This document shows, piece by piece, positions 18,502 to 62,844 of a DNA stretch of 64,000 nt. Within the stretch, counting starts at the first letter, position 1. Every line of letters begins with the position of its first letter. The notes below the pieces were generated by a model. The model worked only from the letters and a program-made list of their open reading frames with translations. It had not been told where the DNA came from and ran no database searches. The stretch comes from Paracyclopina nana (lineage: Eukaryota; Arthropoda; Copepoda; Cyclopoida; Cyclopettidae), in contig JAGUCH010000008.1 in NCBI GenBank assembly GCA_019096065.1, forward strand, positions 5,647,001 through 5,711,000, in the 5' to 3' direction. The translations under genes were made by a program, and so were the position numbers.

Positions 18502-18648
18502 TGGCTCATTATCTTCCGCGTCTTTGATCGTAACGTGGTTGCGGTTGTTATCGCTTCTTATTTACTGACATCGCAACCTCGTCAGTAAATAAGAACCGAT
18601 AACAACCGCAACCATGCTACGATCAAAGACGCGGAAGATAATGAGCCA
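18502..18648. repeat. Long near-perfect inverted repeat (hairpin)
   Basis: Two arms of 68 bp each (18502-18569 and 18581-18648) flank an 11-nt loop. They match at 65 of 68 positions; one mismatch could pair as G-U in a plus-strand transcript. The outer ends are TGGCTCATTATC and its complement. The arms show no coding frame or domain. It could be a foldback element or a source of double-stranded or small RNA. Confidence 0.9.
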
Positions 18649-21600
18649 ATTTCATCATTTTGGAAAATCCGCCAATCATCTCGCCAACAAAAAACTGATT
18701 TGAGATCTCATTTTCCAATTGGAATTTTTGATACCTTTTCCCGTTTGTACTATTTACTCAGCAGCATCAGCATATATGAGATGTTCAAAGAAAAGTTGCC
18801 GGCTGTGAACAAAGTTTGCCGCCATCACAAGCATGCATGCAGGTGTGAGAATATGCAAATGGTGTTCTTCTTTTTTGAATGGGATGACACGACCCTTATT
18901 CAAACAATTTCACCCAACGAAACTTTTTCCGACCACAAAAGTAGTATTGCACGAATTTCTGGAACTCCAAAGTAAACACATTTTGGCCATTTCGGGAAAT
19001 CTCCTTAAAGGGAGTGATTCATGATGGCGCTGATTAGAAACCTCATTACACATGATAATACGTAATAATGGACAATTTGGCCACAATCAGCTCGCGCTCA
19101 GAGGGCGTGAAACTCAAAGGAATTCCTTGTAATGAGATGCGACAAAAAACCAGTCATATCCCATTATGGCCGATAATAAGCTAACTATGGCCACACTAAT
19201 GGAAAAGTATGCCTCAAAAAAATCCTGATGCAAGTGACCTGAGCAAATTCAGCATTCTTTTCAATTTCACCCTATTATTTAAGGGAAAAATTGGCATGAT
19301 TGACAATGAGAATTATGAAGTATGGGCGATTAGCATTTGTTATGAGAGCAGGTCTTGATCGTGACTATTCACTTCCCAGTCCACGTTTCGATTTCGATAT
19401 CACGAAAATCATTTGTATGCAATGATGATGGCTTCATCGATGCCAATTAGTTTTCTTTTACAACCAATTGGATTGGAAATTCGTGCACTATGGGTGGATA
19501 ATGAAAAAGCAAATGAGTGCGCACGAAGAAATCAAATTCCAAATTAGCTGTGAGAAGCAGAAAAAAGATCGAGCCAGATTTGCTTTCTTGATATGAAATC
19601 CCTATTTGGAGGGTTGTTTGTTGGCCTCAATGAAGAGATGTGGTGGCCAGATTTTGGGTAAACAAATTGGCCAGAGTGTGAACTGAAGATGGTCAGATAA
19701 GGCTATTTTTGGTGGCTGGCCTGGCTTAATTTCCACCCAGTCCGAAGATTGATAATTAATTAACGAACAAATCAACGCTGCTCATTTTGGCCTTAAAAAA
19801 ATCAACGCGCACACCGCTGTGGTGGTACTGCTGCCAAAATCAGGTTTCCTAGCAGGGCTGGGTCAGTTGTTCTCAGTTTGGGAAAATTACAAGACAAGCA
19901 ACTTTAGCTCTATAGTAGCTCAATGTTATCAAGGCCCAAGATCTGATGGTGACACCCATGCATCATGAATGGAAATTGAGAATTTTCGTTGATCTCAATT
20001 TAGATCCCACTGTGGTTGAAGCACTTCGATCTCTCAGAATAATTGTCTAATTTATTCTTTTACCCCCTGATGTACTATGTACTACTATGGAGCAATGGCT
20101 CGTGCTCTTTTGGATTTGATTCGGGTCGTTGGCACCTACAGATGGAGATCACTGATAATCTACCTCCTGGCCACTACTTAACACATATATGAATTGTCCA
20201 GCTACAACGATGCACACTGGTCTGAAGCTGTTCTCACCAAAACGCAAACCACCCACTGAATACAGCGAAAATCTACTAAGAGTTACACTAGATCATTTTC
20301 GCTCGAAGGATCTGAAATTAATGCACAGAATTCCGATTTCGTCTCGTGAAAACGTAAAATTGATTGGAATGGAGCATAAATGAAAATCACGTGAAATTTA
20401 AGGGATTTCAACGACAATTCTAGTGCGAGAAAAAGTATTGAAAACTGCTGCTGTGAATATATGGATGGTTGCATTGTATTCTAATTTAGTTGCGTATGGA
20501 GCTTCTAATTGCAGCCACAGCCATTTATGCTCATGAGTAATGTTATACTGCAAGAAGTAAGTAGCAATGCCTAATTTGGCCTGGCTATGCCTCATTATGC
20601 ACAGTAGTCTACAGTATACTATATGGTTAGTATTAGCTGCAATTAATTGAAAATACATAAAAAAGCCGACCACTAGCGTAGTTGCTGGCATTCAGCCCAG
20701 TGTGCACACATTATATCCCGCCAAGCTTTAATGGCTCCGAGGGTAGCTCCAATTATTATGGAGAGTCGCATTTCATCAATAATTGGAATGTGGTAAACGA
20801 AAGAAATTCCTCAGAAATTGCGGTATATAAAGGTAGCCTATCCAGAATAAAGGTATTCATTATACCACTACTTATAGGAGAGAGATAAAAGAAGCTTTTA
20901 ATATTTTATCAAAGTTTGGGGCGTGGCTTGAGTATGGTCAATTTTTAAAGCTGTTTGGTGGTGACCACCCTATACTGCATAGCAGGGCTGCTCATTCTCA
21001 CGGATTCTCAAAAGTGAATTTGATGGCGATTCTTGCTCCATCATTTCCTGCAGAGCGTTACATTATGACACCACAGGATTTTCCCCCAAGAAGCCTATTC
21101 AGAAAATTTGGACAATAAAGATCGTGTGAGCTGATAACTCAATATATTATAAGGCGTGAAAATCGACTATCTTCCATGATTTACAGACTACTACTTGTTG
21201 TTATCGGCCTAACTGTAAATTCGGTAGAAGAAATGGGTTGAATTAATGAAATTCAGATCTCAATCAGAGTGGAAATGGGAATTGCTGGCCGATTTTTCAT
21301 TATTGTTGCATTAATTGCATTTATTTGGTTGACTTCACTTTCTGATAAATTAAATCTACTATTTTAAGCTTTGTCATGCAATAAAGCCTGAAATGGATTA
21401 AATTGAATGGCAACTCTCAGTTATGTGCTCAGCTCCTTTCAGGGAAATCAAGCTAGGAAGAGAAACTGTTCATTACGTCAAGATTTCTTTGCCTTTAAAC
21501 ACAGTATATACAGTATGGAGCATAAAATCCTGGTTGCAAATCTCCTCTCTGCCTAATAGGGGGTTGATGATTTCGAGATGAAAAATGCAAAATCTATGCA

Positions 21601-22631
21601 TGTGAGCCAGCTACTCTCACCCCTTTTGCTCTGGCACCAGCTCCCAAGCCAGCACAGATGAGGAGAATATGTAAATGGGTTCATCATTTGGAAATGGACT
21701 CAACCAAGAGCAAATACCTCTCCACAGGATATTGATCTCCAACATGATAGCCTCTGGTCTAGACTACTCAAATATGGCTGCAGTCAGCCCACCAATTTTA
21801 TGGCTTGTTGCGAAAAAAGAGCTTAAAATCACATTCCTCTGATCTCACCACAGAGGAAAATAGTATCATCAATATATTTCAAATTGAACGTGAGCAGAAA
21901 CAAAAACTATTCCACTCAATGCCTAGTGAATATTAATTTTTCAGTATACTCATTTCACACCTTCAAAAATGATTCCAACACAAACAAATTGATCAGTCAA
22001 GTCAGAAACGTTGATGATTTATGCGGATATGAAGCTGTTTGTGAGTTTTGCACATATTATTTTGATGAAAAGGAGTCCTGCTGCTGCGATGCGCCTAATT
22101 GATTGCCTGTCTCTCATGCATAAGCAGCCCCTTAGGATGTGTAAATTAACACAAAAGAATAGTACTATATAGCTCTCAAAGTAAGTGACAAATGATCTGG
22201 CCCCAAAAGCAAAATCATGACCTTTGGTGGGCCTGAAACTCGACACCCACGTGCTCCAGCTACTTTTTTCTCTCTCAGCTCATAGCATATGTATTTCAAC
22301 ATAATCCAGATGGGGGGAATATAATTATGGCCATCAATGCTTGAAGTTGAGGTGAAAATGGACCATTGACATGCAGCGTTTTCCATTCATTAAAGCTAGT
22401 GAGCATCTTCAGTGCCATGCAGTATATTGAGAAAAGGCAAGAAGCTGTCTGTCATAAGGAGTCTTGCCACAGGCAATATCACTCAAACTAGGTGCTACTC
22501 TTAAGGTGAAGAAGCTTCCACTTCTTGATGGAAGAAAACATGGCCTCTAGGTGACTCAAATCCAATTTTGCCACCTATTCTACCCAGCTTATAACAACTA
22601 CAAAATTCAAAAGCAAGAAGAATTGCTCATT

Positions 22632-22648
22632 CCCCACCAAAATTTTTG
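22632..22648 (+). repeat. Left terminal inverted repeat of the transposon
   Basis: CCCCACCAAAATTTTTG, an exact reverse complement of 30781-30797. The preceding bases are CATT. Confidence 0.88.
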
Positions 22649-22655
22649 ATGGATT

Positions 22656-22980
22656 CCAGGTCATTTTTCAGAAGCTTATAAGTATCTGTGAAATCGACCT
22701 AATGACGACTAATATTAACCTGGTAGGTCTAAATAGGTTGAGATCAGGTAGTTGTCTCAGGTCGTTTTGCACCTGTTGGCGACCTGGAAAGTTAGATAAA
22801 TATTCGAAAACAGTTAACTGTCAAGCCTTGTACAGGTACTTTCAGGTACTTTGCAATGCAAGGCAAAATTGAACTAACCTGTAGACTTAACATGGCTGCT
22901 AGCTAATAAGTACTAAAACCACTATCTGTCCACTTTCTTCCAGGTGAGATAATCTAAACGAACAGACGACTACAGGTACA
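22656..22980. repeat. Left subterminal CAGGT repeat array
   Basis: At least ten copies of CAGGT or ACCTG in about 325 bp on both strands, including CCAGGTC, CAGGTCG, GACCTGG and two CAGGTACT. Chance expectation for a 5-mer on both strands here is below one. In plant CACTA elements such arrays bind the accessory TnpA-type protein; the analogy is inference. Confidence 0.7.
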
Positions 22981-23320
22981 CGCCACCACGCCCTTCGCGC
23001 TCCCAGCTGCCGCACCCTACCACGCCCTGCTGCTTCGCAGCTAATGTTTATATCAGGCTGAAGTTTGAACATGTTAATGAGATGCTTTTATTTAGTCATG
23101 AATAGCATATTAATAAACAAGGATTCGAGTCGTCTTTATAATTAGTCGTGCTTCATAGTTAAATGATGAAATGAATTGCATGTCCGTGTTTATCATGAAC
23201 TAGGTGGACAATACTAAATCTTCCTTGAATGCACTTAGACGCTGACACATTAAATTTTCTTTAGAATGGCTAGTGCCAAGCATTTAGCATCTTCGTAATG
23301 AAATAATATTAAGCATACTT
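22981..23320. other. Non-coding interior between left array and TE gene 2
   Basis: Contains a short GC-rich patch (22980-23040) and, at 23087-23092, TTTATT, a possible poly(A) signal for the minus-strand TE gene. Nothing else was recognised. Confidence 0.5.
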
Positions 23321-26300
23321 CTATTTTCTTGGAGGCGTCTTGATAGCAGCCTCTGAGACCTCATCGGAACTGGAAGACTCTTGTACTTGAGCGCTAGTCA
23401 GAGTCTGCATGCTAGTAGACGGAGTAGCTGACAGGCCCACAGTAGACGGATCCTGGCTCGTAGATGCTGCAGGAGTGACAGGGGCGTTGTATCTAGCAAG
23501 GTGACCAGTGAATTTCTTGGAACTACGAGTGGTAGGTTTCTCCTGTAAAGGGAGAAATGGTGAAAAAGGAAGGATCAAAAATCACTAACATTCTAGCTAC
23601 ATGTTATCATGTAAATTGGTTGCGAGCAGTTCATAACAATGTAAATAATATAAATAACAGCGTGCTTAAGTAAAGCAATAACTAATTTGGCCATTTAGAT
23701 GGAAGGATGATAAGGTTAATTAAGGACTTACAGGTGGATCGACTTTAGCTCGTGCAGCCTTCTTAGCAGCTTCTTTTGCTGCATCCTCAGCAAGGATTTC
23801 CCTAGTCCTTTCAATTCGGCGCTTCTTTTCGTATTCTTTAGCTGCCTTTTCCTTCTCAGTCAATTCTGGGACGAAGTCATCTTCGCTGTCGAGCTCAACC
23901 TGGCTAGCATCCATGACCTTAGATGCAGGTTGCTGCTCCTGCCTGAATTGGGTGAAAGGATAGCGCTTCCGGGGACTTACAGATGCTGAGCGGGATTTCT
24001 TGCTAGGAGTGCTGGACTCTCCCTCTTCACCTTCCTCTGTGTCGTCTTTAGCACGCTTCTTTCCCTTACGGCGGCTCTCCAATTGATCAATGTACAAATG
24101 AGGAATGTTATTCCTAGCATCGGCAGAGAACCTGTTGACCAAATCGAGTATGTCCTTGTTTCGGACTTTGGCAGCCTCGTACAGTTCGTCAAGCTGAAGC
24201 AAATATAAATACATTGACATTGTCACATGATCTTAATGAAATTAGTTAAAAACTTACCTCAGGTACTTGATCAGGAAGCTGCTCATGAGCAAGGTTGAAG
24301 GGGTCATATCCAAGCAGATAAGCTGAAGCCATGATGATGTCAAGCATTTCGTCACAGTCCACATCGACACCTTGATCCCTGTACATCTCAGTGAGGCGAT
24401 GATCCATAGGCAGGTAGACTTTCTTGTCGTAGAGACCTTTAGCAATGATCGTCTTGGTGATCTCGCTTCGTTTCATGACTGCCTTCTTGTGCTCCGCTTT
24501 GCTAGCTGGAACTTTGACATCAGGACCCAGACAGAACTTGTTTGCCTTGTAGTACTTGTAGTCCCAGTCCACAACAAGATCAGCGGCCTCGTGGATGTTA
24601 GGAGACTGGTTGGCGGCATTCGTCAAAAGAGCGCCGTACTCATTTGACAGCGTCTTAGAGATGGGCGTCTGAATGTCGGCAAAGTGGTGTTGATCCTTAT
24701 TGAGGTCCAATTTCTTCATCACGCAAACTCGGGGAATGAGCTGCTTGTTCATCATTGACAGGAGACCCTTTGGCAAAGGCCGCTTGATGAATGTCATCAT
24801 TTTGATGGACCTATTTACAAAGAAACAGTTGGCGATAAAGTTGTTAAATGATGAAACATTTAACTTACGCCTTGTTACCACCATAAATCATGTGGCTCCG
24901 AGCCATCTGAGTCAACGTGTTCATCAAGCAATTTCTAGCAAGGAAGACATTCATATTCTTCATAGGCAGACTGTCTAATGTTGGAGCGATGAAGTCGACC
25001 AGTTGCTCCTTAAAAATTAATATTTGATACATATTTCGGCGTTCAAAAGAAGTTGTTAAGTTCTCCTTATTTACCTGTACAAATAGGAAAGCAAAAAAGA
25101 CGTCAATAGACTTTCCGAGAGCATTGAAGGGGATGACACGGAACAAAATCCCCCAAGCCTTGCTTTTAGCTTCTGGGTTGAGCTGCATATTGCCGAACGT
25201 GTTGACTTTAACAGTCTCAGTCATGGACAGGTTAGTGACATTTTCATGAATGTCTCTCGTTTGGAGCTTCAGAGCCTGAAAATTGTTTGTTTGAAAAAAG
25301 ACGCAGCGGAAATAATTAAAAAGCACTTGTCGGCAACTTAAAGAGACGACGCTAGCACGCTTAATTAAGAAAAATTGATAAGTGGACAAGAGAATTACTT
25401 ACATTAAATCCAGCAAATTTGTTGTCCAACTTCTTGTTGAACTTGTCCAATTTCGTGTCATATTTGAGTTCGACAGCTTCAAACTTCTCCTCAATCCAAG
25501 CTCGCAAGTCAACTATAGCAAGCAAAATGTCATTGTTGGAAGCATTATGGGGAAGGCGATCCCTCTTTCCTTTGCTAGGCCCTGGCATGTCAACAGCCTC
25601 CGTTTGCAGCTCGGTCGTCTCATCTAATTCCTCCACATGTTGCGTGGCCAAGTCTCTGGATCTTTGCGCCAACTCCAAAGCTTCCCGAAGCTCAATGGCA
25701 TCAATCACGCCTGAAAGGTCTTGAGGCATGACACTCTCAGTTCGCTGCAAGGCCGGAGGAGACTTTGGTTTCTGAGTCCTTGCTGCTTGGTCCATAGCAA
25801 TGTGTTGGCGGACAATTTCATCAGGGTCAATGACCGTGTATCCTGAAGGTGGCATCGTGCTGCTGGTAGTCAACGAAATGGTCGCCAGGACTTCCTCTTC
25901 GCGCTCAGGTTCCTCTTGAGTTTGCTGATCGTCATCAGCAAAGATGACAGGTGGAGGCACGCTCGTTGTTTGCTCAATAGCAACTTCGTCACCCTTGGTC
26001 ACACTCAAGGTGATCGACTTCGGCAAATACTTCTTTGCAGCCACCTGAAAAGAGGTTAACAGTTATTTGAGCAATAAGTGAGAAGCTGAATGTAGTGAGG
26101 TATTACAATGGCAGGATCGTCCTCGGATATCTTCTCCTTATAGGTCTTTTGAGAAAATTGGCTCGCATGATCGGATTCATCGGTAATTGGAGCCTGGCTC
26201 TTAGCAAGCGTTTGTCTTGTATTCATCTTATCAAGTTTAGGAAAGATGAACTGCTTCCCTTCGACTCTCTTGACGTAGGCAATGTTCGTCATGACCTTCT

Positions 26301-26754
26301 CGTAGTAGAATTCTACCATGTTCTGGTAGTCGGCCATCAAGTGCCTGGCTTGGCCTCCCGTCAGTTCCTCATTGAGATCATCAATGATGTTGTCCAAGCG
26401 GTTTGAATGAACACCTAAAATTTTCAACGTTTATTAAGGTTATTGTCTTTTGACTAAGCCGTATTTAGAATAATTACCATCCTGGACTCGGGCAAAGACT
26501 CGAACGAGCCGATCCACTCCAGAGAATTCGTCCTTGATGACGAAAAGGTAGCAACGCTGATGAATCTCCATAGCCTCCAAAGGATTCATCTTATCCTTGA
26601 TGATGTCGATCCACAAAGTCCCTTGTCCATCACGGATATCGGCACTGACGTAGCTGAACGGGTTGTCCTCCTCGAACTGGCACACAATGAGTCGATCGTA
26701 CACTGTGGCTCCAGGTTTGCTCGTTTCCTTCGGTTCAGGTTTCTTTTTCGCCAT
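23321..26754 (-). CDS. Transposon accessory protein, eight exons, unknown function
   Basis: I do not recognise this family. Eight exons join with perfect phase: 26754-26478, 26414-26107, 26044-25403, 25275-25075, 25008-24869, 24810-24258, 24193-23732 and 23542-23321, giving 934 aa. All introns have GT-AG ends and are about 58-190 bp. The N-terminus is MAKKKPEPK, then a compact region with LIVCQFEEDNPFSYVSADIR and LWIDIIKDKM. Exon 3 is acidic and Pro-rich, with the basic run GPSKGKRDRLP and a helical segment LRAWIEEKFEAVELKYDTKL. Exons 4-6 form the most globular part. Exon 7 has nuclear-localisation-like clusters (RRKGKKRAK) and a charged helix (EKEKAAKEYEKKRRIER). The tail is Ser/Thr-rich. 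Position and partner suggest the second, TnpA-like gene of a CACTA element that binds the subterminal repeats. That role is inference. Confidence 0.82.
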
Positions 26755-27244
26755 ATTTACGACTTTTAAGGCTCGCTATAAATTTTTGGCGTCGGCCGTC
26801 GTCGCCAACCGGAAGTTGAGTAAGCTGTTGCGATTTGACGAAAAAATATTTAATTTCAGACACCTTCCTGACAGTTACTTGTTTACAAACTGTCAGATTG
26901 CATTTGGCAAAGCTAAGAAAAACCGTTACTGATCTTCTCAGTCAGCTGCTGCTCACAATGACTCGGCATTTTCCGGTGGAATTGACTAACCTATTAGCGG
27001 CTTATTCAATAGCTGTCAGATTGATATCAGCATCATATTATGTAGTTGATGCGTATTGGTGCAAATGCTGACGCCATCTTTGATTTGTCTCAGTTTAACG
27101 AGTTTTTTACTCAGCTAATTGCTGACTCCCAAAATAATTGTAATGCGCACATTTGCACATTGCTTAAAAAGCAAAAAACGTTCGTGTACAGTGATTTAAT
27201 CATAATCAGTGTTATCAAGCAGCGATTTCAAACACGGCATCGTC
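26755..27244. promoter_or_regulatory. Divergent promoter region of the transposon
   Basis: The 490 bp between the two start codons must drive both TE genes outward. It is AT-rich and contains no convincing frame. I could not assign individual promoter elements. Confidence 0.55.
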
Positions 27245-30190
27245 ATGGCGAAGAAGTAAGTTTATTAATCTGTCTTTAAACATGCCGATCAAGTACTTAA
27301 AACATTTCTTTTCGTTTTCAGAAAGCCGATCATGACCAAGCAGGATATTTCTGAGCGGCGGCGATACTACCGCAAACTCAAGAATGTGCGTGACATTTTG
27401 AAAAGAGTTCATGCTCAAGACGAAATCCATCCTCCCATGACTGAGGGTCTCTTTGGAAATGATCAAGACGGCAACAAATCGGGCAGCAGCAACGGTAATG
27501 TGGAAATTGATCGTGCTGTCCAGGAAATTGAATCGCTCATCGCAACATCCGAGCGTGGCGGCAACCTAGATGCTTCCTTTGAAGATTCCGACAGTTCAGG
27601 TTCAGAGGACGAACAACGTAGCCAAGAACCAAGTGCTGGTGAAAAGCGCCGCCGTGAGAGTGAGAAAGGTGACGTCTCCAGTTTGTCTGACGAAGAAGCT
27701 GCTGATCTCGTGGCAGCAGCAAGAGCCAAGAAAAGATTCCGTCATCGACAGGCTAGCCGTCACTTCATGAACTTAACTGCCGCCACTCACCAACAACAAC
27801 CCTTGGTTTATGTTGATCTTTCATCTGGAATTGCTGATAGGCCATCTACAAGCACCAATTGTGACATTAGTGTCCCCATTGCAGCCTCAGCGACAACATC
27901 GAATGTGCAGCTTCCAACTCACTGTGCCCAGAATGGGGAAAACGAAGAGGTAGTTGTGGTTGACCTAGATACATCAATGGAAAGTGACAGTAGCATTGTT
28001 GACGCTGACGTTGACACTGAGGTGGAAGAGTCATCTCATGCAGGTCACAGTTGTGATAACGTGCCAGATAGCGTCCATATGGATTTCTTCTTGGAAACAA
28101 TTAGACAACAGGAAGCTGAGGAGGAATCTGATGATCCCGACGCACCAATTGATGACGGCAACAATGATCAACCTAGAAGCGGACTAAATGAAAGCTCCAA
28201 TGACGAAAACGATGAGCGAGAGCAAACAATAGCTGACAATGCTGAAAGTGGCGACGACGATCAAGTGCAATGTGACGCCAATGATGAAGGACAAGCCTGT
28301 AAACTGAATTATCAAGGCTTTTTGGAGTATTTCAGGAAAGAAGCGTCCTTGGATGGAGAAGCCTTAAGGCACAGAAGTTACACTGAGATTTTCAGTGAAG
28401 TAGCTCGGAAAACTTACATCAATGAAGGAGTGCAGAAGATGATGTTTGATCTCCACAGAGCTCGAGATAAGGTCTACCTGAACCAAAAAAGGAGGGCTTT
28501 AGGTAGCTGTCGGAAGATGTGGATGCGCAACAAACCTAAAGTTAAGATGTCGTACGAGTTCCGAGAAATTGCAACAGGTCGCATTTGTAAAGAGGAGAGG
28601 CTGCACAAGTTTCCTAGAAAAAGGTATCCAGCAAGCCAATTTTTGAAGATTTCCGAGTTTGCCGTCGTGAACTTGTATGAGCTGTTCATGCATTCGCAAC
28701 GTCTTCATGGCCGATCTGATTTGGAGCCGCCAATGGCTTCTAAGGGAACAGATGGAATTGACTTCTTTATGGACGGCGTTCCTCTAGCCAAAAGCTCACC
28801 AGACAAACTTGATGTCGTACTGGTGCGATTTCCACATTGCAAGCTAGAGTACATCTATGGGATGCATGTCTACAAGAAAGACTGCTCTTTGACAGCCAAT
28901 CAAATCTTGGAGAAGTTCATCACTGAGGCTAAGTTTCATGATTTCCGCCTTAACAGGATTATTGGTGATGCTCCTATAAGAGCACGTCTCAAGTGCTTAA
29001 AAACATTTGCCGGGTTCTACTCCTGTGAATGCTGCCTGGCTAGAGGTATTAGCTACCTCAACAGAGTAGTTTTCCCAAGTGAAACTATGAATGCTGAGCC
29101 AAGGACCGATCATTGGTGGAATACCATGATCGAGCGCATTGAGGAAAATGGCGGCATTGAAAATATCGATGCAGATGAGCTCAAAGGCCTAACAGGAATC
29201 TCCCCTCTGTCCAAACTCTATGGACACGACACTAGCTACTTCTCAATGGTTAAAGGCTTTACTGTCGAACCGATGCATAACATCGGAGGTTGCATCAAGC
29301 AACTTATCCGGCTGATGTTCAACCTATCCAAAACTTCAGTGAAGCTCTCTGCAGAACAAACGAGAAAGCTGCGCCTTGTTGACAAGCGATGGATCGAAAT
29401 TAGGCTGCCAAGAGAATTTAATCGAAGGAACCGAGAGTTGGTGCGTGACATCAAGCATTTCAAGAGCCAGGAATACTTTTCCCTGGTTGGCGCTGGATTC
29501 TTGGCTGTAGCGGATGCGATGGATCTCAAAGATGACCTGAAGAAGAAGGAAGTTTGGCTGAGGTTTGCTTTCCTAGTGAGGCTTGTTATGTTCCCCAACA
29601 AGCAGTGGCACAACTTCAAGGTCAAGATTGGCATTTGGATTCACATGTGGACCTTCTACAGGAACTTTGAAAAGGCTTTTGGCCTCGAGAACTGCAGCTG
29701 GAATATACATACCTTCAGCCATCTCATTCAGCTGCGTGACGTCTCCAACTTACCTGATGGGACTGCTCTCTTCTTTGAAGGCTTCTTCAATATCTTGAAA
29801 AAGGTAATGAAAAGCAACACGCCTTCCTTCACGAAGCAAGTTATGGACATCATGATCGCCAATAACGTCAGGGCGCATGATTGCAAACCAATAGTTCGGT
29901 TTTCGTCCAAGGATAGGCCAAGATACGGAGATAATCTCATCTATACAGATGATGGAGACTTCTACCAGATTGAATCCATTGGCGATGATCACTACAAAGC
30001 TAAGAAGTTTCTGACTGGTCGTTTTGAGACTCCAGAAGTCAAGTCAATTAATTGGGGAATTGTTGGCGTCAAGCACTTGATTCAACTCAACGAAGAAATT
30101 CACGTCGTCAAGAAGGCCAACGTCATTGGTAAAGCAAGCATTGATCAAGACGTAATTATTTCAATGCCGTTTGCATTTGCCTTCGTCTAG
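27245..30190 (+). CDS. CACTA/TNP2-like transposase
   Basis: Catalyses cut-and-paste transposition of its element. A tiny first exon (27245-27255, encoding MAK and two bases of a Lys codon) joins across a 66-bp GTAAGT-CAG intron to 27322-30190, giving 959 aa. The first 330 residues are acidic and Ser-rich, probably disordered. The catalytic half resembles TNP2-type transposases of animal CACTA-like elements: FFMDGVPLAKSS, GDAPIRARLKC followed by FYSCECCLARG (a Cys cluster), VEPMHNIGGCIKQLIRLMF, NIHTFSHLIQL and FFEGFFNILKK. Likely DDE residues are Asp488, Asp553 and Glu823 by motif position. The frame is unbroken. AATAAA lies at about 30321. Starting at the ATG at 27332 would lose only seven residues, but the spliced start reproduces the MAKKKP of the opposite gene. 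Confidence 0.85.
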
Positions 30191-30797
30191 ATAGACAAGT
30201 GTCATCTTTCCTACTCGTCAATAACCTATGTGCTTCTTTAAAGACAAGATACAGTATGCTATTCAAATTATAAGTGTATAATGACAGGTCCTCTTTTTGT
30301 AAAGTTCATGACGTAGTCAAATAAATAACAATTCTGGTCAATTACAAATCATTACAGGCAAACACTAGCTTATAAGTCACATATTCACATCCATTCATAT
30401 AGTCTTCGCCAATTGCAATGGTCTCATTTCAGGGTCGGTGCATTTTCTTCGATTAGATCATCAAAACTCATCTGAAATGCGAGTAAATATCAGAATTAGA
30501 CAAATTATACTGAACATATCTGTTGCAGCGTTAGAGTTCGTGCAAAGTTCAGTGTGCAAAGCGCCTATTTTACAAGCCGTTGACAAGGAATAGATAGGTA
30601 CTATTTACGACCTATAACCTTTATTTAACTATGCAAGGCTCAGGTGCAAAACGTCCTAGAGAGTATGTCTATAGGTAACTGAATCTTTCCTATAACCGGC
30701 CTATATGCAATTGGAAACTAAAAAATTAATAAGGTTGTGTATAGGATTGTTTCAGGTTGCTGACAGGTATAGTGAGTCGCCAAAAATTTTGGTGGGG
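30191..30797. repeat. Right subterminal region and terminal inverted repeat
   Basis: The transposase 3' UTR, then AGGT and CAGGT repeats (around 30583, 30640, 30671, 30752, 30763) and several CCTATA/TATAGG words. The perfect 17-bp terminal inverted repeat is 30781-30797. The array is sparser than on the left; such asymmetry is common in CACTA elements. Confidence 0.72.
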
Positions 30798-33267
30798 TTC
30801 CAATGGAATGCAAGAATAGTATTATTTTGTATTAATTGACTGAATCATAATTATGACTGCTGCAGTGCTACATCTCACTTCTAGGAAAACCACGTACTTG
30901 AAAACAATGGGCATCATGATGCAAACAGTCATCATCCATTTTGTGAAAAACCACCAACAGTGTTGCTCAGTTGGCTTTGTCGATTTCACATTTTCACCTC
31001 ATCACTCATGGCTGCTGCCTCAGCTAGGGTGATTATTATTGTTGTTGCCAGCAGCCATGTAGACATAGAGCACAACAAATGATGACCTTGGTAATAGGAA
31101 GGTGTTTCTTTAATTAATGGCTGGAAATAGCGTTGCCAAAGGGGCAGGACCGTCTTCACAACGTATAATACACAACTTGGCACATTTCATCATCACAGGC
31201 TCTTTCGTAAAGAATGCTAAGCTAATTTGCAGCCATTTGACGCTTATAATGACACTCGACTTCGATCTTTGCTATTTGCAATTGCGCGCGCTGAAGGCGA
31301 AATTCCGCTACAAGATTTTCCCTGTTTTCCTGGCATAGATTATTTTGTAAAGCCAATTGAACGTGCGCTGAGAATGGAATGCATTTTTTGCTTCGCTTAA
31401 TTACAAACCTCAAATGCAGGCATTAGAGCCAATGGTGGATACACGGAATTGATGGAAGGACTTGTTTAGACATTTTGTTACACCTTGAGCCCACGCAAAT
31501 ATATCATATCCAAATGTCATGGTGAGAAGAAGTACTGTTTGTGTGTGTGTTTGTTTTGCTAAGAAACCGCCCCAAAACCAATTTGCATTTTTTCAGCCAA
31601 AATGCACTTTTGTCAATCACCGCGCTAGCTGCTCTGCACCGCATAAGTGCAATTCACTAACGCCTAATCAGGGTGTTTTCCATCAATTCCCGGATTTTTG
31701 CTCCTCTTTTCCTTCTAGAGCTTTTTTCACACCCACCTGAATGCACTTTATGATGGCTGGAAACCAATAATGTGCTGTTGTTGTTGCATATGGCTTGAGT
31801 TGATAAGAGGCCAACATATTGAATCAACAAGGCCGTAAATTATCTATGCTCTTTTTAAGACGATCCTAGTGGATTGTCATGATTGTAAATGCATCCATGA
31901 ATGGAGCAATTCATGCAGAGCACCCAACAAATAAGGCTGCAAACGTTTTTGTTGCCTTATCATCCAAAGTTGATGATTATGAGCATGAAAAAACACCCAA
32001 GCAATTGTCGCACCTCCATTTCAGCCTTTCAGCGGGATCGTCAAAAGATCAACTCGGCGTGGATAAACACACTCACGTAGCAGTACCAAGCATTGCTGCT
32101 GCCAATTGAGAGGAGAGAAGCTCCAAACGAGATATCCAAGCCATAACTTTAAAGCCAAATAAGAAGCTGGTTGGAATGTGTCTTTAATTGGCTCCTTGGC
32201 CACCCAGCAGCTGAAATGGAACAGGGTTAAAAAATTAAGAAAGCATTTGTGTTGCAAAATGGGCGTACCTGCTTAGAAACATTGGAATCTGCCCAATAAT
32301 TTATGCCAAGCCGAGCTGGAAATGGACCAGAGCTTGCAGCACTGTTTATGGGGGAGTTTCATCTGCATACTGAAGGCAAATCTATTTAAAAGCATTTTTT
32401 TTATTTTATTGTCAAGTGAATATTAAACTAAAAGTTTGAAATGGATCAAACGAATGTGATTCAGTTTTCATCTTGAAAACAGATTAAATATATTAAAAGT
32501 AAAAAAATCACAGAGTATTTTTTCCTCGTATTTTAAACCAGCCCATGTCTTTTAGGGGCACCGAGAAGAAAGAAATGTAATTTTGAGAGAATGAATGGCA
32601 GCACTAAGCGAGTAAAAAACATCCACGTGCTCTTTCAAGTTTAGGGTCTCTTTGTCCATTTGCGGTTTTTGTGGCTTGCACTATATTATATCTGCTGATT
32701 AAGTTTGACACGCAACCAAAGCCACACTTTGACTAATTTGAATTGACAGCAAAAGTCGTCGCGTTGTCGTTGCGTGCGCAAAAGATTTCTTATGTTACAG
32801 AGTTGAAAGCTAAGTATCTTTATAATTCTTTAAAAGCTGCGAATTTATTGATGAGGGCTTCAACAAGGTTTGACGTGTTGGCTCAAGCAAGCACGTGGAA
32901 GCTATAAATGTAGCCCTTTTAGGGAAGCCACGAAAACAATGGGAAAAATACGATTCTAAGACCACTGATAACAATCTGGAATTTGATTCGAAAAAATGCC
33001 TACACAATGCTGGTATGGTGTCGATAGCACTGAGAAATTCAGGCTTAAATTCCTCTCTCCATATTGTGCTCAGTGACACGCGCCGCGACCCTTTACACTA
33101 TAATGTCCACTCCGCGCGTTGAAATCTCCACAATTCTCGCCAATCTGCTGTTCATCTGCTACAAAGCCTAAAATCTTCATTTTGCATCATGTCGACCACA
33201 GAATATCGAATTATTAAATGTTTACTTGAAAAAAATCCTTGATTTGGTGTGACAAGGAAATTTTGAT

Positions 33268-51829: not shown

Positions 51830-52843
51830 AAAATATTGTTTTTCATTTTAAAATACATGTTTGCGGGGTCAGCGAAAAAAATTGTGAAATCACTGTTTTT
51901 TATTCACACTATAAGGAAAAGGTTTTAAAAGCCTTAGAAAAGAGTGGACAGCTCTTGATGTTTTCAAACTGGGATTTGGAAGAGGCTGCTAAGGCAGTCA
52001 ATGGCATTATAGTGAAAATGGCAATTCTGAGTAGGAAGTCGTGCCGGTCAAAAACAGCTGGGATTAGAAAATGCGTCTTATTTCTTTCTTCTTTTACATC
52101 GTATTGCTTAAAAGTTCCGCTTTGCCCTAAAAAGTTGTTGCTGCTAATTTCGAATTTAATTTCTATCTCGATGTTTCCTTCGTTGATACTTGTTTTTCTT
52201 CGGAAGGAATTTTAAAGGGTCTTTGTTCAGTTTAGGTTATACTAAATCGTGATTCCTTCTTTATCCTTTCCTTACTTAGCGTCAATTTTCAAGAGTTTCT
52301 TGTCATTTTATCATAATAATTCAAACTTTTTTTTAACTTGAATGAGCATGGAATGTCCGGAAAAAGTGGAAATTGTATTCATAATTCAAAAACGTGCTAC
52401 TTTTTCGTCAACCCTAGCCAATTTTAAAACCGGCGCGTTCACCTAATGGCTTTTTTTAATCGAGCTTTTGAGAATGATGGTGCTTTTTAAGGATAAAGTA
52501 AACAAGAGTTCACGCGCATTTTACGTCTGAAATAGTCTGTATTGTAAATTCATTTATTTATTTCAAAGTTCGTCAAATAACTTGGGTGAAAAATTGTGAA
52601 AGCCGCGCTCGAGTGAAATTCGATCTACTTTGATAATAAACAGTGTTATTCAAATTGGCAACAGCTGCTCAAGAAACTTCCCGTGAAATGGCATTTTCGG
52701 TCGAATTTTGTCGGCAAAGCTTTCACAGATTGCATCACGTTTCGCTCAAGTTCGGTCATCATTAGGAAGAAAAAAGCTTGATTCTGAGGGAGACTGACGA
52801 AGAAAGTTGTAAGAAAGAGGCAGAAATTTGATCTTTTCGCGAA
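51830..52843. other. Intergenic DNA and UBR5 5' region
   Basis: No coding exon is supported. The last few hundred bases probably contain the UBR5 promoter and 5' UTR. A frame at 51955-52215 is Leu/Ser-rich and not convincing. Confidence 0.5.
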
Positions 52844-55800
52844 ATGTCGGCCGCGGCGAGGTCGTCGTCCATGGGTGGGACAATTGGAGGCGCTTGTCCT
52901 CTCCAATTTGTCGTCCATCCTTTGCCAGGATCGACCGAACAGCTCACGGATCGCCTGCGTGAGGTCGGTGACCGGCTGCGTTTGCCAGCTGCAGCCAGGC
53001 CAGGGCCTTTGGTGCCCTCAATTCCAGGATCCTCTGGATCGGTGACAGCCTCCCAAATCGAGGTCGGGCCGTCTCACTTTGCGTTTTTGCTCAGTGATGG
53101 CCGCCTTTGTCGCTTGCCCTTCTCCGTCATTTCTGACCGCTTGGACTTGAACAAGACGAGCCAAAATGCTGGTGGATCTGGCGGATCCCTTGGATCTCAC
53201 GGCGGAAGCCACGGAGGAGCTGGTGGCAAAGGAGCCGGCTCGAAAGCATCGGGCTCTTCCATGGCCTCAGGTATGTCTGTTTTTCGGCTTTGCAGTGTTT
53301 TTGCATGCCCTTTTCATATTGTAGTTTTTCAATACCCCTTGCGTAATATTTGCAAATTTAGTCCTGCATATTTTAGGCGGAGTGTCGAGGCAAGTGCCTC
53401 GCCGAGGTCATCGCATCATTCGCACGTCCTCGGTGCGAGGTCGGACTGGCGGAGCCTCTGGAGTGAGTGCACCTGGAGGCATGATCATGTCCAGCTCGAG
53501 GCCGGCCACTTACGTGCCAGAGGATCTCATTTCCCAGGCTCAAAGTGTGCTGCAGGGTCGATCCAGGAACCTCATCATCCGTGAGCTCCAGAGAACCAAC
53601 CTGGATGTGAATCTTGCTGTCAATAACTTGCTCTCTCGTGATGAAGAAGATGGCGACGATGGGGATGAGGGCAGTCAAGACAATTATGTTCCTGAAGACT
53701 TGATTTCGCTTCTGGATGCTGGCATCAATGCTGACCACCCTTCAGTCATCATCGATGCTGATGCAATGTTCAGCGAGGACATGTTTGGCTACAGCCAGCG
53801 TCGATCTTCCTCTAATACAAGGTAAAACAACTTGATACCTTGATCAAGCCTCGAAATTTTAGTCAGGCCAAAAGGTCAAATATGTGCACAATTAGAAAGC
53901 TATGGTTGAGCAAGCAAGTCGCGTATTCTCAGCTTTCCGAATTAGCATATTTTCTAGCTTTAGTACTTCTCAAGATTTTGGCCTTTTTCTGAATTTTTAC
54001 CAAATGAAAGTGATCCTCATGCTAAGACAATAAAAAAGTGTTATGAGGTCGGGAAACTTTCGTGTTGTAAACCTCAAAAAATCCTCGTTTTAGATTTTTC
54101 GTGTCAGAACTTTTAATTACAATTCTTTTTGCAGAATATTTTCTAGTTTAATTATTTTATTTTTGCTTAGGCGATCTTCTGACCGTGATAGACCATCAAC
54201 GAGCTCGGGAGCTACATCAGCTGAAACCGTGGCACTTTCAGCTGGAGCTTCTTCGGCTGCAATTGTGGTATCACAAGCTGCCCCCACGGATCGACATTCT
54301 ACGTCTTCATCGACAGCTGGCGGTGCCAACGATTCTGCCAATAATCGAGAGGCCATCTTCAGATGGAGGGATCGCCAGTACTACAGCGGCCCCAAGAGAT
54401 GGCTCGAATCTGCCCTCAGAGATCCGGCTTGGCAAGACAAGGACGAGTCTGGAGAGGCCAAGAAGACCAGCTCTGCTAATGCAACCACTCCTGAGGCTGG
54501 CCAAAGCCCACTGTGGCTTGGAGAAGACCTCGAGTTTTGGCCAGAAAAGGGTGCCAAAGACAAAGTGAGATTTGTGATGATTGCTGCTCTTCACAACGAG
54601 CTCGTGGCAGTGTCCGACAAGGGACACTTGTACCAATGGAGGTGGAGTGATATGACTCCACATCGACATGATAACCCGTATGGAAACCATCCAAGATCAG
54701 CTGGTTTGGGCTTGACCAACGAAAGGGTGGTCAAGATATCAGCCTCCAACATTAGGTATGAGTTTTATCAATATAGTTAAGCTTGAAGCGCCGTATTTTA
54801 TTCTACTATTTTTTACATAGGTGCTCTGTTGTGACGGAAAGTGGCAAAGTTGCCACGTGGTATGATGAATCAGTGAGCCATGTTTGTAGCAAACTGGAAC
54901 ACTCTGCCATTTTCTACCCTGAATTTGCAAGTGACAAAATTGCCTCGCTCCACACGTGTGTCTTATACACAGCAGTTCGATTGGAGAACTCTGGCCACAT
55001 TTTCTGGTGGGGCGTTCTACCTTTCAGTCAACGCAAACGTCTTCTGGAGAAGTACACCAACAAAAAGAAGTCCACTCCGAAACGAGCTAGCAGTGGAAAT
55101 AGCTCATCGAAGAAGAAATCGGCCTCTTTGGTCAGTAGCCTCAACTCCAATGAAATCACGGTTGGCAGCCAAGTTTGCATGAGGAAAGCTCCCATGTATC
55201 ACTCTGGATCAATTGGCTTCACTGTCTCTGGAGGCATTCCCAAAGTTGGCCAATTGCTGAATGCAGCCTGGAATATCACGGACACGTGTCGATTCAAGAT
55301 AATTCAGCCTCCAAAGCGGCCCAAACTTCCAGAGTTGCCCAAGGAAAAGGACAAGCAAAAAGAGGAGCATGACACAGCCTCTATGCCACCTCCACCCAGC
55401 CCTGCTTCGTCCACTTGTTCAGATTCTAGCATGAGTCGCAGGCACAAACGATCAGCTCCCCGGGAAGAGCCAGAAAAGGTGGATGAAGAAGAGTGGAACC
55501 TCAAGGAAGTGATTTTTGTTGAGGACAGCCGTAATATGCCTATTGGCAAGGTTATCAAAGTTGATGGCCTCCACACTGTTGTCCATTTTCCCATCGCTGG
55601 CAGCAAAGAAAAAGAGCCAACTATTTCAGGGCAGGTGCCAGCTCCGCCTCAGCCATCACCCACACCTACACCTCCACCTTCTGGATTAGTTGTGCCTCCA
55701 GCTCCCCCAGTTGCTCCTCCTAAAAAGGATGGCTTGAGCCAAGATGAGGCGTCCTCACTTCTCCTTTCACCAACGACCAGGATCCTTCCAAGGGACCAAT

Positions 55801-58800
55801 TGCAGCTGATCAAGGGTGGCTGTCTGCCGCGAGTACCAGACTGCTTCCAAAGAACGCCCAAAAAGGTGACTTTGCAAAACATGGTGTCAGACATGAATAG
55901 TCAGATTTTGGCCATAATGGTCGATGGACAGGGTGTGCATGCCATCGTTAAGAATGATGCCAAGCTCAGCCATCGCGTGTACAACTTGTCTTCTGGCAAG
56001 ATTGAGGTGGACTCCAAGTTTCCTACCAATGCTGGCGCATTCATGGGTCTCAATCCTACTAGCCAAATTGCCTTTCACTCCACTGGCGAAAACGACTACG
56101 TTTCCATCCTTTTCGATGGTAACCGAACTGTGTATCCTCTTGTGAAGGATTCCACACCATCTGCTGATTCTATCAAAGATCCTCAACTTTTGGACTTGCC
56201 ACCCATCCAAGCCCTGGGTCTTGGCACTCATGCTCTCCCACATGTTGGTACTGGCAAGAAGAATGAGGTAGCAGTGATCGTGCTCGCATTTGTCGCTCAA
56301 ACCGTCATGCCAAAGATCCTGCAGTGCGATTTGGAAGCTGTGAAGCGGACCATTGCCAGTTTGGAATCTGATCCTACTTCGGTCACCTCACAAGAACTGG
56401 TGCAATCCATCATTGATGAGAGATGCGATGGAGGACGAAACATCTTCCATGCAGCTGTGTCGATGTGCGTGCCAACCTCCAACAAAGACTCTGACCAAGA
56501 TGCCTATGCCAATGCCTCACCAGCCACATCTTTTGCATCCACATTTGAGCATATGGAGTCGGTCACCTCCAGAGCCATGAATTTGAGAGAAATGATGCGA
56601 AGAGCCGCCGTGGCTTCTAGGCTAGCCACTGAGGGTGCCAGTCCTTCGTTGCGACCAGTTCCCGATTCTTTGGTGGCATCTGGATCTGGAAACTTGGCTC
56701 CACCCGGAGACTCGAGTCCTCCTGTGATTGATGAGTCACCCTCATTTTCAGCTTTGGCATGGCCTCATCAGGCAGCTGAGGCTTTGGAGGCGGCTGCATC
56801 TGGACCTCAACAGCAAGGCTCCAACGAGGCTGTGGCGGCTGCTGTGGCAGCTGGAGCCGATGTGGATTCGCTTCTGGGTTTGGCTTCTGCGGCCGCAGCT
56901 TCAGCCTCAACCTCGAGGGCCGTGGCAGCCACAGCTCAAAAGCTGATATTTGTGAAGCCACCCCACATTCTGGACAACGTGGAAAGGCGTGCCAATGCTT
57001 TGGCTATTTTGAAGATGGTCTGTGATTCTCCGGTCTTCCTTCACAGACTGGAGGCCATTTTGGCTCTCAGGGATGCTCAAGGCAACACGCCCTTCATGGC
57101 TGCCGTGGCCAATAGGCAAGTTAATTATTGCATGGACAAAACCAGAAGAGTCACTAAATTGTTCTCAATTCTAGGTCTTACCCGGCAGCTATGGTGCTTT
57201 TTGAGGCCGCTCAAAGGGTAGCCAAGGAATCTTCCAACGATGTCGATACTCAAAAGAAGACTTTGATGTCCATGATCTATCCAAGTGGAAGTCCTCCTGA
57301 TGATTCTCCATTGCATGTCATTTGTTGCAATGACACTTGCAGTTTCACGTGGACTGGAGCTGAACACATCAATCAAGACATTTTTGAGTGTCGAACCTGT
57401 GGCCTCACTGACAGCTTGTGCTGTTGCACTGAGTGTGCTCGTGTTTGCCACAAAGGACATGAATGCAAATTAAAGAGGACCAGCCCAACGGCCTACTGTG
57501 ACTGTTGGGAAAAGTGCAAGTGCAGGTAATTTTTCTTTTTCGATTTACTTGTGTTGAACATTGTAGATTTCATTTATCACTATATTGCAGATCAACCAAA
57601 GCTGGACATCAGGGCACCAGATATGAGGTTTTGGTCAAGCTGGTGACTGAAGCTCCGGATTTGGTCAAAGAGTCCAACTCTCGTGGCGAAAACATTCTGC
57701 TCTTTTTGGCTCAAACTGTTGGAAGGCAGCAAATTGAGCAAAGGCAATACAGGCCATCGAGGTCTCGAAAATCTGCTTCTTCAGCCAGGAAAGCATCCTC
57801 GGCAGCTGACAACAATGAGCCTGACATGCCTGAACATGACCTGGATCCACCCAAGTTTGCTCGCAAGGCTCTTGAAAGGCTGCTCAACGACTGGAACACA
57901 GTGCGGGCCATGATCATGTCTGGCCACAAGGACACCACACTCAAAGCTATGTATGAAGATCAAGCCTTTTTGTCTAGTCAATCCGGGACTGCTTTGTTGG
58001 ACAAATTCACCCACTGCCTGTTGGTGAAAAATAGCTCGGACATGCTTGACACTTTGCTCAACACTCTCATCAGGCAAATCAAACTTCAGCCAGAAGTAGC
58101 TCGGATTGTGGCCAAAAGATTTGTGCGATCGGTCATTCGAGTGTTTGTCGTTTTCAACATAGAGCTAGCACCAGGACAAGCCAAGAAGAGATCCTCGTTG
58201 CATCATCACCAGGCTACGTCAGCTCAGCCTCTACAAAAGTGCAAGCGTGTTTTCCAGGGATTGATCAACATAGCTGTTGAGGAGCTGTGCGAGACTGCCA
58301 ATTCCCTCTTGGCACCAGTAAGGTTGGGAGTCGCCAGGCCAACCGCTCCATTCAGCTTGTCTACGAGCAGTACCGAATTGTCAGTGGAGGAGCTCTTCTC
58401 GATTGAGCCCATGGCACCCAAACCTGCAACCTCATCAGCTCTGCTCAACAGTTCGGCCTCAAGCAACCGCAGAGGCCGGACCAGATCTCTCACAGTGGAC
58501 AATTTGAGGCCTTCGAGGAGCCAGCAGCCTCTAATGGCTGCATCCAATGATGACACAAATGATAATGACAATGATGTCCAACTTGAGCCGTCGCAAGGAA
58601 TGCAACAGGATTTGGACAATGAAGACTCCATGGGAGGTGTGCTGGAGGCTGCTCCTGCCAATAATGTCAACATCCAGGCTAATGACGGTGGGGCAGTTGA
58701 AATGGAAGCTGTTGCTGAAAATGCTGACAATGATGATCAGCAGTCCGACATGGATCTTGATTACTTGGCGGAAAGTGACAGCGACTCTGAGACCGAAAAT

Positions 58801-61800
58801 GAGGCCAATGAGACGCAGAACAATGCCAACAATGGCAATGCTGCCAGCGGTGGTGAAGGAGGAGCTGGTGGCCAAAATGAGGTCTTCTTCTCTGATGAAG
58901 ACACCGGAGAAAGTTCCCACGGGGAGGAGGATGAAAGTGATGGTGGAGAAACTGATGAACAAGATGGAGATGAATTTTCCTACAGTGGAGCTGTTGGAGG
59001 TCCACCCGAGGAAATCCTAGAACGAAGATCCTCTGGACCTCTTGGAGGCCTTGGCAGTGACCGTATCAACTTGGCACCGCAATCCATGCAGTGGGCCATT
59101 CGTACACGGAGCAAAGGAAGAGCTGGTGGAAGTGGTACTGGAGGCAGCTCCGGCGGTGGAGGATTCATCTACATTGATCCCGCCAGTCTGCGTCGATCAA
59201 CCTCAAGTGCAACAGCAGTTGCAGCGGCAGCCGCGGCCGCAGCGGCCGCTTCAGGAAGCGGTGGATCAGCTGGCAGTGAGTATATGACCATGTCCACGAC
59301 AGCCTCGGCCTTGGCCAGAGCTTTTGGCGTTGTCGTGAGGACAATTGCTGATTTGCTCAGCCTTTTGCAAGACTATGGACCCTTGACTCCGCCCTTGAAC
59401 AGAATGTTAGACATCTCCACCAACGAGGCTGTCAGCCTTCAATTTTTGATTGAGACCACCCTGAAGCCCAACTGGGACTGGCTGATGACGGTGATGGACT
59501 CCACCGAGGCTCAGCTCCGATTTGGCTCAGCCCTGACCAACTCCACTGATCCCAACCAACCTGGCCATCCTTTGTCAAGGACAGCTGTGTCGGCATCGCG
59601 TCTGATCTCTGCTCAAGAATTGCAGCCTTCCACAAGTTCAAGAGGATTTTCGGCCAGCCGAGCTGCAGCCACTTCATTGTCAGCCCTGACAGGTGCAGCT
59701 GGATCAGCTGGCACTGCAGTGCTCGCAGCCTCTGGTCATCTGGAGCCAGCTTCGAGTCGAAGAGACTTCTTATCCTATGCTCTGTCCCTGATGAGGTCAC
59801 ACAACTCTGAACATTCTGACTCCCTGCCAGTGCTTGACGTGGCCTCAATGAAGCACATAGCCTATGTATTTGATTCACTCGTTTATTACATGAGGTCAGG
59901 CTCTGATTTGGACCTTCATTGTGGGGGCAACCCAGAGTTCCTTCCTGAAGTATCTCCTTCTACGAATGAGGAAGCTGATGATGATGGAATGAACGAGAGA
60001 GAAATTCCATCTGGTCGAAGGCACATTTTCTTCCAGAGGTCCGAGTCGACTCTCTGCCTGGGCTGTCCACCTCCAGATCCATTTGCCAATTCTGATCCTA
60101 TCCCCTTAGCAGAGCAGCCTCAGCTTTTACAGCCCAACGCAAGAAGAGAGGACCTTTTTGGTTCACCTAAGCAGCCATTGAATCAAGCTGATTCCGCCAA
60201 TCCCCTCTCAGTCCTGCCAACAAAATTGGGCCTGGCCAGCAGGAGCTCTATTGATGAACCGATGGAGCATTCGTCCTCTTCTCCTTTGGCCCAATCTCAA
60301 AACCAGCTGAGATCTATGCTAGCCACTGATACCGAGATGACGGCTGAACAGCCTCAGGATCTGTCAATGGCCTCCAGCTCCGGATCGGATAGCAGGGTGT
60401 CCTTTACATCGCCCAAGAAGGCTTTTATGATGCGAGCCTCGACATCGTCATCTTCAGCGACAGCCGCTCCAGAAGTGCTGGTGGTGTCAACTGAGGCTGG
60501 CAATAGCCACGAGGTAACTATTGAAACGACCACCAAGCACCACCCTCAAATCAAGCAATTGATGGCGTCCGTGCCACACGATATCCTTCTTGGGAGATGG
60601 AGACTCACTCTCGACCTGTTTGGACGCGTTTTCGTCGATGACGTCGGCCTTGAGGCTGGCTCAATCATCTCTGAGCTGGGAGGATTTCCAGTGAAGGAGG
60701 CCAAGTTCCGACGCGAAATGGAGAAGTTGAGAAACTCGAGGACTGCAGACCTCACGTTGGTGAAATTGGACCGTGAAAGGAATAACCTGATTGTGCAAGC
60801 CTTCAAGGAGTTCAACACTCACTATGCTCAAAACCTGAGGCGATCTTCATCCACGCAGCCTCCAATGGTGGTAAACCGAGTAAAAGTGACCTTCTTGAAC
60901 GAGCCCGGAGAGGGATCCGGAGTGGCTCGAGGATTCTATACGGCTTTGGCTGAGGCTGTCTTGGCTAACCAGAAGTTGCCCAATTTGGAAATGGCTCAAG
61001 CTGCAGCTATGGGCTCCTCAGCCAACTTGGCTGCTGCGGCCTCAAAGTCAATGCAATTCAGCCTTATCCAAAGATTAAGAGGTACCAGAGAGGCCAGGAT
61101 GGGAGGCCGAACGACCTCAACTTCCACCAGCTCAGGGCCTACCAGCGGCAGCGGTGGAAGCAAGAGCTCCACTTCCCGAGGCCGTGATGTGTCAAGAAGC
61201 CTCTCTTATGATGCCAGAAACTTCATCATGAACGGTAAGCTCTATGACAAACTTGGCGAACTAGAATTATGACTTAGTGTTTTATTATTATTCATAGGTG
61301 ATGTTGCCGGCCCAAATGAACACTTGTCACATCAGCAAATCGCTCTAGGCGAGCGTCTATACCCGAGGGTGCATTCTTTGCACCCTGCATTGTCGAGCAA
61401 AATCACTGGCATGCTTTTGGAGCTGTCCACTGCTCAGCTGATGCTCTTATCCGCCAGCGAAGATTCACTCAGGCTGAAAGTTGATGAGGCTGTCGACCTC
61501 ATTTATCGCCATGGTCTGAGCAACGAGCAACCTCAGCAAGGTGGCAACGTAGCTCAAGGTGGATCCGGAGGAGGTGGAGCTTCAAACGAAAATTCACTCT
61601 TGCCTGACATCGACATATTCAACCTGTCTGCCTCTGCTGCTGCCAAAGCCAAGGAGGAAATGCCGCCCCTCGAGGCTGAGCCTGAGGAGGACAATGCTCC
61701 GCTCTTTTACTCCCCTGGGAAACGAGGCATTTATTCACCTGTTCAAGGGAAAGCATCCGCAGAGAGGCTTAACGCTTTCAGAAACGTGGGACGACTCATG

Positions 61801-62838: not shown

Positions 62839-62844
62839 TTTATT
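62839..62844 (-). terminator. Poly(A) signal overlapping the stop codon (esterase gene)
   Basis: TTTATT on +, AATAAA in the transcript. It begins within the TAA stop of the esterase frame. Confidence 0.55.

Follow-up and report, generated by a model that had tools for sequence, protein, structure and literature searches.

A CACTA-like transposon with a divergent companion gene in the copepod Paracyclopina nana

The element and its two genes

The window analysed here is a 64-kb stretch of the Paracyclopina nana genome (contig JAGUCH010000008.1, positions 5,647,001 to 5,711,000), and it contains an 8,166-bp transposon-like element at window positions 22632-30797. The element is bounded by terminal inverted repeats of the CCCCAC... 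type with the sequence CCCCACCAAAATTTTTG, in which 22632-22648 and 30781-30797 are complementary at 17/17 positions, and TT flanks it on both sides (22630-22631 and 30798-30799). Two genes lie inside, and both are open throughout. The transposase gene, on the plus strand, has two exons (27245-27255 and 27322-30190) and encodes 959 amino acids. The companion gene, on the minus strand, has eight exons running from 26754 down to 23321 and encodes 934 amino acids; its introns are 58-189 bp long and all GT-AG. The two start codons face apart over a 490-bp spacer. The initial annotation had described perfect 17-bp ends, TT flanks, subterminal repeats and two unbroken genes pointing outward, all of which are borne out on the sequence. 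The features of the element are as follows, with the strand where one applies.

22630..22631, target-site duplication, left copy (TT); a 2-bp duplication is present in 10/10 elements with both ends read
22632..22648, plus strand, left terminal inverted repeat CCCCACCAAAATTTTTG; 17/17 complementary
22657..22977, 11 CAGGT/ACCTG motifs of the left subterminal region, which may be binding sites; 0.57 expected per 400 bp
23321..23542, minus strand, companion exon 8, C-terminal end ...AIKTPPRK; gene model
23732..24193, minus strand, companion exon 7; gene model, with homologues in relatives
24258..24810, minus strand, companion exon 6, the query of the genome search; gene model
24869..25008, minus strand, companion exon 5; gene model and relatives
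25075..25275, minus strand, companion exon 4, still identifiable in distant member L065; gene model and relatives
25403..26044, minus strand, companion exon 3; gene model
26107..26414, minus strand, companion exon 2; gene model
26478..26754, minus strand, companion exon 1 with the start codon; gene model and relatives
26755..27244, 490-bp spacer separating the two start codons, described by length and composition; presumed bidirectional promoter
27245..27255, plus strand, transposase exon 1, 11 bp; gene model and relatives
27322..30190, plus strand, transposase exon 2; candidate catalytic D, D and E, with CxxC and HxxxH, within 28334-30187
30641..30768, right subterminal CAGGT motifs at 30641, 30753 and 30764; motif count
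30781..30797, minus strand, right terminal inverted repeat; 17/17 complementary
30798..30799, target-site duplication, right copy (TT); 2-bp duplication, as at the left

The exon models are predictions whose support comes from related elements, not from transcripts. On visual inspection of eight elements, the 11-bp first transposase exon is legible in four (the window copy and the relatives C5, L034 and L035), and the remaining four have a different transposase 5' end. Companion exons 4 and 5 are fused, without an intron, at the modelled junction in the C1 and C2 copies.

The left 400 bp of the window element hold 11 CAGGT/ACCTG motifs, against 0.57 expected from the window flanks. The right 350 bp hold three, with a fourth further inside at 30285, and CTATA/ATAGG is commoner than CAGGT in the right end.

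A family with two linked genes

The genome searched consists of 10 contigs that add up to 92 Mb. When the window transposase served as the query, 48 of 273 candidates were scored, and 45 of the 48 matches are stop-free. A second search, with the transposase of a distant member, scored 73 of 243 candidates and gave 74 matches, 70 of them stop-free. Both searches are lower bounds, and merging them leaves at least 76 transposase loci. The companion searches gave 55 and 112 matches, the latter at a cut-off of E 0.01, which merge into 137 loci.

The companion is matched upstream and on the opposite strand at 66 of the 76 transposase loci, at a distance of 2,092-4,163 bp, where about 0.45 such pairs would be expected by chance. 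Three close pairs have another arrangement; one of them involves the companion of a neighbouring element, and the other two are presumed to be neighbours too. Among the 48 matches to the window transposase, 40 are paired and the eight unpaired ones are the most distant. The unpaired C2 locus at 11.85 Mb, when read directly, does contain a divergent companion (24% identity, E 2e-7). The companion had initially been presented as an exceptional survival in one copy, and it turns out instead to be a standing component of the family.

The CCCC-type end pattern, allowing up to two mismatches, occurs 119 + 95 times in the genome, compared to 44 + 45 for the reversed control. Around 29 of 30 end-pattern loci (L014 was skipped), seven short elements of 0.98-1.24 kb were found (L012, L015, L019, L023, L026, L028 and L031), each with CCCC ends, a partner end and a 2-bp duplication. 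By their structure these are probably non-autonomous derivatives. L012 and L026 have common flanking letters and may be one insertion that was duplicated.

The genome holds many deeply diverged lineages of the family, with mostly open transposase frames, and near-identical members occur in twos or threes. Such a set of diverged, mostly open lineages in a 92-Mb genome points either to fast purging of dead copies or to repeated arrival from outside.

Mobility of the relatives

The C1 and C2 members are 99.909% identical over 7,726 bp (three mismatches and four gap positions), and this identity stops at the inverted repeats. Their flanks are unlike each other, with AA and CC as the respective duplications. 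At the right end, six near-identical pairs are available, and in five of these the two sequences part at the terminus or within one base of it. The sixth pair, L053 and L054, stays identical as far as the stretch extends, and a larger duplication may be the reason. Ten elements have both ends read, and all ten have CCC ends and a 2-bp duplication (TT, AT, AA, CC, TT, AA, TA, TA, CG and AG).

The C5 element lies inside a palindromic miniature inverted-repeat transposable element (MITE). Its flanks, when joined with one AT retained, equal the uninterrupted MITE beside the C1 element at 144 of 144 bases, and the joined sequence matches 40 scored places at 99-100% (40 of 161 candidates). The L035 element is inserted in the same MITE family, and its joined flanks again agree at 144/144. 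The initial description of an intact two-gene CACTA-like transposon with divergent transcription is upheld by these relatives at different sites, with their 2-bp duplications, near-identical pairs and empty sites.

The MITE itself is about 160 bp long (L062:286-435, L063 and the 40 scored places), and the scored copies are 99-100% identical. Copies of it house two of the ten elements whose two ends were both read, which is above its share of the genome by a rough estimate from the 161 candidates. The MITE may be a preferred target.

The transposase

The transposase residues D147, D212, C231-x2-C234, H459-x3/4-H463 and E482 are invariant in 21 of 21 aligned sequences. The alignment consists of the window copy and 20 of 29 fetched relatives, with four broken or partial sequences and five near-duplicates omitted. 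A signature of D, D, CxxC, HxxxH and E has been given for CACTA, Mirage, Chapaev, Transib and their relatives (PMC12730594). The signature of the CMC group (CACTA/EnSpm-Mirage-Chapaev) is complete in this transposase, and the two aspartates and the glutamate are the candidate catalytic residues.

The 2-bp duplications, read in ten of ten elements and at two empty sites, lie within the 2- to 5-bp range of the CMC group, and the combination of CCC ends with a 2-bp duplication, seen in the same ten, is that of the animal TRC elements. Compared by eye with the motifs set out in PMC1636069, TRC motif I is partly present (D-G-x3 without F/Y and W-P), as is motif A (M-H-x3-G without the leucine), and the aspartate of motif III is present together with CxxC. 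Classical plant CACTA elements have CACTA ends and a 3-bp duplication, whereas the ends here are CCCCAC and the duplication is 2 bp.

Seven other Pfam families match one or two of the 21 transposases each, with a best E of 0.012, and the integrase core rve matches one of the 21 weakly (E 0.059). The profile of the transposase alignment found no relative among solved structures. One scan of viral contigs with the alignment gave 18 pattern matches, none of which was confirmed.

The companion protein and the subterminal motif

The companion has no recognisable domain. In Pfam, the best E is 0.12 for its separate exons and 7 (FliX) for the spliced protein. Neither the spliced protein (E up to 1) nor the exon-6 profile found a related solved structure. 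The scattered Pfam matches of 14 exon-6 relatives were taken as chance; the best is Tricorn_C1 (E 0.0018), and Myb_DNA-bind_7 reaches E 0.018, each in one relative.

A PRKxYP-like motif can be read in the companions of the window, C5, L034, L035, L036 and the C1 and C2 copies. As a motif common to both proteins it was dropped, the companion stretches of L048 and L056 having no readable motif. The C-terminal part of the companion (window 23321-24193) has S/T-P-x-K/R sites, which read SPRK and TPPR in the window copy, and similar sites are seen in several relatives of the clade and its sister clade. S/T-P-x-K/R is the consensus of cyclin-dependent kinases.

Over 12 loci, distances between transposase cores mirror those between companion exon 6 sequences, with a correlation of 0.968 between the two matrices that no permutation out of 10,000 equalled. 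In six pairs of sequences, the proportion of synonymous differences (pS) is 0.77-0.90 and that of nonsynonymous differences (pN) is 0.10-0.28 for both genes. Synonymous sites are saturated; ratios of nonsynonymous to synonymous rates (dN/dS) are therefore not given, and the lineages must be old. Both the transposase core and companion exon 6 are under purifying selection in the pairs compared.

The CAGGT/ACCTG motif is concentrated in the clade of the window element. Counts per 350 bp, left + right, are 11 + 3 in the window copy, 4 + 4 in C5, 7 + 5 in L034 and 5 + 4 in L035. Elsewhere there are 0-2 in 14 right ends from other clades, 0 + 0 in the C2 copy, and none in the left ends of L036, L043 and L056 or in the 174 bp seen of L048. 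Clade-specific repeats would be expected if one of the two proteins reads them, which does not say which one. In the maize Spm element, the protein TNPA binds the subterminal repeats, and by analogy a TNPA-like partner role is the most likely one for the companion.

Other features of the window

A palindromic repeat at 18502-18650 has pieces that match the sequence next to the C1 copy at 95-97% identity, and that sequence also resembles L008; the repeat is probably another MITE family. Long open frames on the plus strand at about 52832-61971, the last one with MLLE and HECT domains, presumably belong to a UBR5-like gene. Part of a carboxylesterase gene lies on the minus strand at 62843-63628. 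These neighbouring genes are in keeping with an animal genome. No Rfam family matches the window at gathering scores, and a search for the SL1 spliced leader had no hit, its control being silent as well.

Proposed mechanism and alternative explanations

The element is very probably an autonomous cut-and-paste transposon of the CMC group, a two-gene system in which the companion is most likely the dedicated partner of the transposase. The transposase would recognise the CCCCAC ends and cut with a putative D-D-E active site, and joining of the element to staggered target DNA would leave the 2-bp duplication. The central spacer may act as a bidirectional promoter that drives both genes outward. 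The companion would bind the clade-specific subterminal repeats (CAGGT in this clade), the transposase, or both, and it may help to bring the ends together or adjust expression, in a role resembling that of TNPA in maize Spm. This division of labour between the two proteins is proposed on the model of Spm. A more specific proposal is that the companion is the second subunit of an animal CMC-type transpososome, namely a new protein family that is linked head to head with the transposase throughout lineages with saturated synonymous sites, has co-evolved with it, reads the clade-specific repeats and is an independent counterpart of TNPA or RAG2. This is put forward tentatively, at slightly under an even chance.

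Several results count against a two-gene CMC transposon, some for the family and some for the window copy. Ten of the 76 transposase loci and 71 of the 137 companion loci are unpaired, which may reflect scoring limits and divergence, or solo copies. Stops occur in 11 of 112 and 1 of 55 companion matches, so some copies are not intact. Of 30 transposase loci, 23 show a CCC-type right end 250-1,000 bp beyond their open frame. A structure model of companion exon 6 alone was unusable, with a mean predicted local distance difference test score (pLDDT) of 54.6. The left 969 bp of the window element match only themselves in the genome, that is, there is no near-identical sister, and a search with its joined flanks gave just the two flanks themselves, with no empty site. 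The closest transposase elsewhere in the genome shares 59% identity with that of the window over residues 3-955 of 955, and a match over part of the length has 70%. As for class, none of the 21 transposases matches Transposase_21 (PF02992) in Pfam at E up to 10, and a search of the genome for PF02992 found no match, with a control that was equally silent. The termini are CC..GG, whereas CMCT elements end in CA..TG in most cases (PMC12730594).

With no second copy and with unique flanks, the window element gives no date for its own movement. The recent activity suggested in the initial annotation, and the near-identical dispersed copies and empty sites by which it was to be checked, are found in the relatives and sister lineages and not in the window copy itself. 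A single-copy locus with no other such ends in the genome had been named as the outcome that would speak against a transposon; the window copy is indeed single in the assembly, yet its family has dozens of loci.

The single window copy and its two open frames would also be compatible with a pair of host genes, or a domesticated pair, between inverted ends that are there by coincidence. For the family this is contradicted by the duplications in ten of ten elements, the empty sites, the near-identical dispersed pairs and the dozens of loci, and it was rejected as extremely improbable. A somewhat unlikely alternative, given more weight than the last, is that the companion stands outside the transposition machinery, either as a passenger or as a regulator of the host response such as an anti-silencing factor. 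Its lack of a recognisable domain would fit such a role, and other transposons carry putative counter-silencing genes, such as TET/JBP in fungal elements (PMC12730594). Captured genes, however, would be expected to be patchy and exchanged among lineages, while the companion is matched at 66 of 76 loci, always in one orientation, and diverges together with the transposase. The change of the subterminal motif from clade to clade suits a DNA-binding partner, although a regulator would be compatible with it as well.

The class of the element is a separate question, on which a distinct, unnamed superfamily outside CACTA and TRC would account for the missing Transposase_21 match, the partial TRC motifs I and A, and the CC..GG ends. 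The full CMC signature, along with CCC ends and a 2-bp duplication as in TRC, makes this unlikely. From its sequence features, the element can be placed in the CMC group with confidence. The TRC type would be its nearest relative rather than its proven home, because the signature, the CCC ends and the 2-bp duplication fit while the motifs are partial and the termini are not CA..TG. The initial label of CACTA-like thus stands in the sense of a CMC or animal-TRC type, given the CCCCAC ends, the 2-bp duplication and the missing Transposase_21 match.

Comparison with known systems

A CMC transposon with a second protein was known already; what appears to be new is a separate, divergent and conserved companion family in elements of the animal type. 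A search of titles and the beginnings of abstracts, with Repbase and subscription journals outside its scope, found no separate companion gene described for animal CACTA-like elements. A 2006 study of animal CACTA-related elements did not find a second protein that was conserved, and its authors asked for experiments (PMC1636069). Here a conserved, co-diverging second gene stands beside dozens of mostly open transposases, with near-identical pairs and short derivatives, in a small genome. With the linked second gene, the near-identical pairs and the short derivatives together, both the requirement for the companion and its reading of the repeats become testable.

The animal TRC elements (SmTRC1 of Schistosoma and the Tribolium and Aedes elements) resemble this one in their CCC ends, their 2-bp duplication, two aspartates with CxxC, and a length of kilobases, with 9.2 kb for the Aedes element (PMC1636069). 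The extra proteins of SmTRC1 arise from alternative splicing, and the same source reports that no relatives of them were detected in other animal or fungal elements. The partner here is, in contrast, a separate divergent gene, conserved within one genome over many lineages. This family also has motifs I and A only in part, and Transposase_21 is not matched.

The plant CACTA elements (En/Spm) likewise combine a transposase of the CMC type with a second protein encoded by the element. In specific families of plant CACTA elements, the second reading frame supports both excision and transposition (PMC4158355), and transposition of maize Spm needs both TNPA and TNPD (PMC1636069). The plant elements differ in their CACTA ends and 3-bp duplication, against CCCCAC and 2 bp here. 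Spm is also mostly transcribed as one unit with alternative splicing (PMC1636069), in contrast to the two genes here, which point outward from a central spacer.

Plavaka and ESTA, fungal CMCT elements, have the same C(2)C and H(3-4)H motifs; PlavakaA and some PlavakaB have 2-bp duplications, and ESTA has TA duplications (PMC12730594). The ends of Plavaka are unlike those here, being TGT or CATCA, and a divergent companion is unmentioned in the accessible part of that paper.

RAG-like transposons share a transposase with C(2)C and H(3-4)H motifs (PMC12730594), and they likewise carry a partner gene inside one element, as RAG1L and RAG2L (PMC7204232). RAG1L and RAG2L are convergent, whereas the genes here are divergent, and the comparison of the companion with RAG2 covers the Pfam and PDB searches. 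Two-component CMC systems bear on how a RAG2-like partner came to join a transposase.

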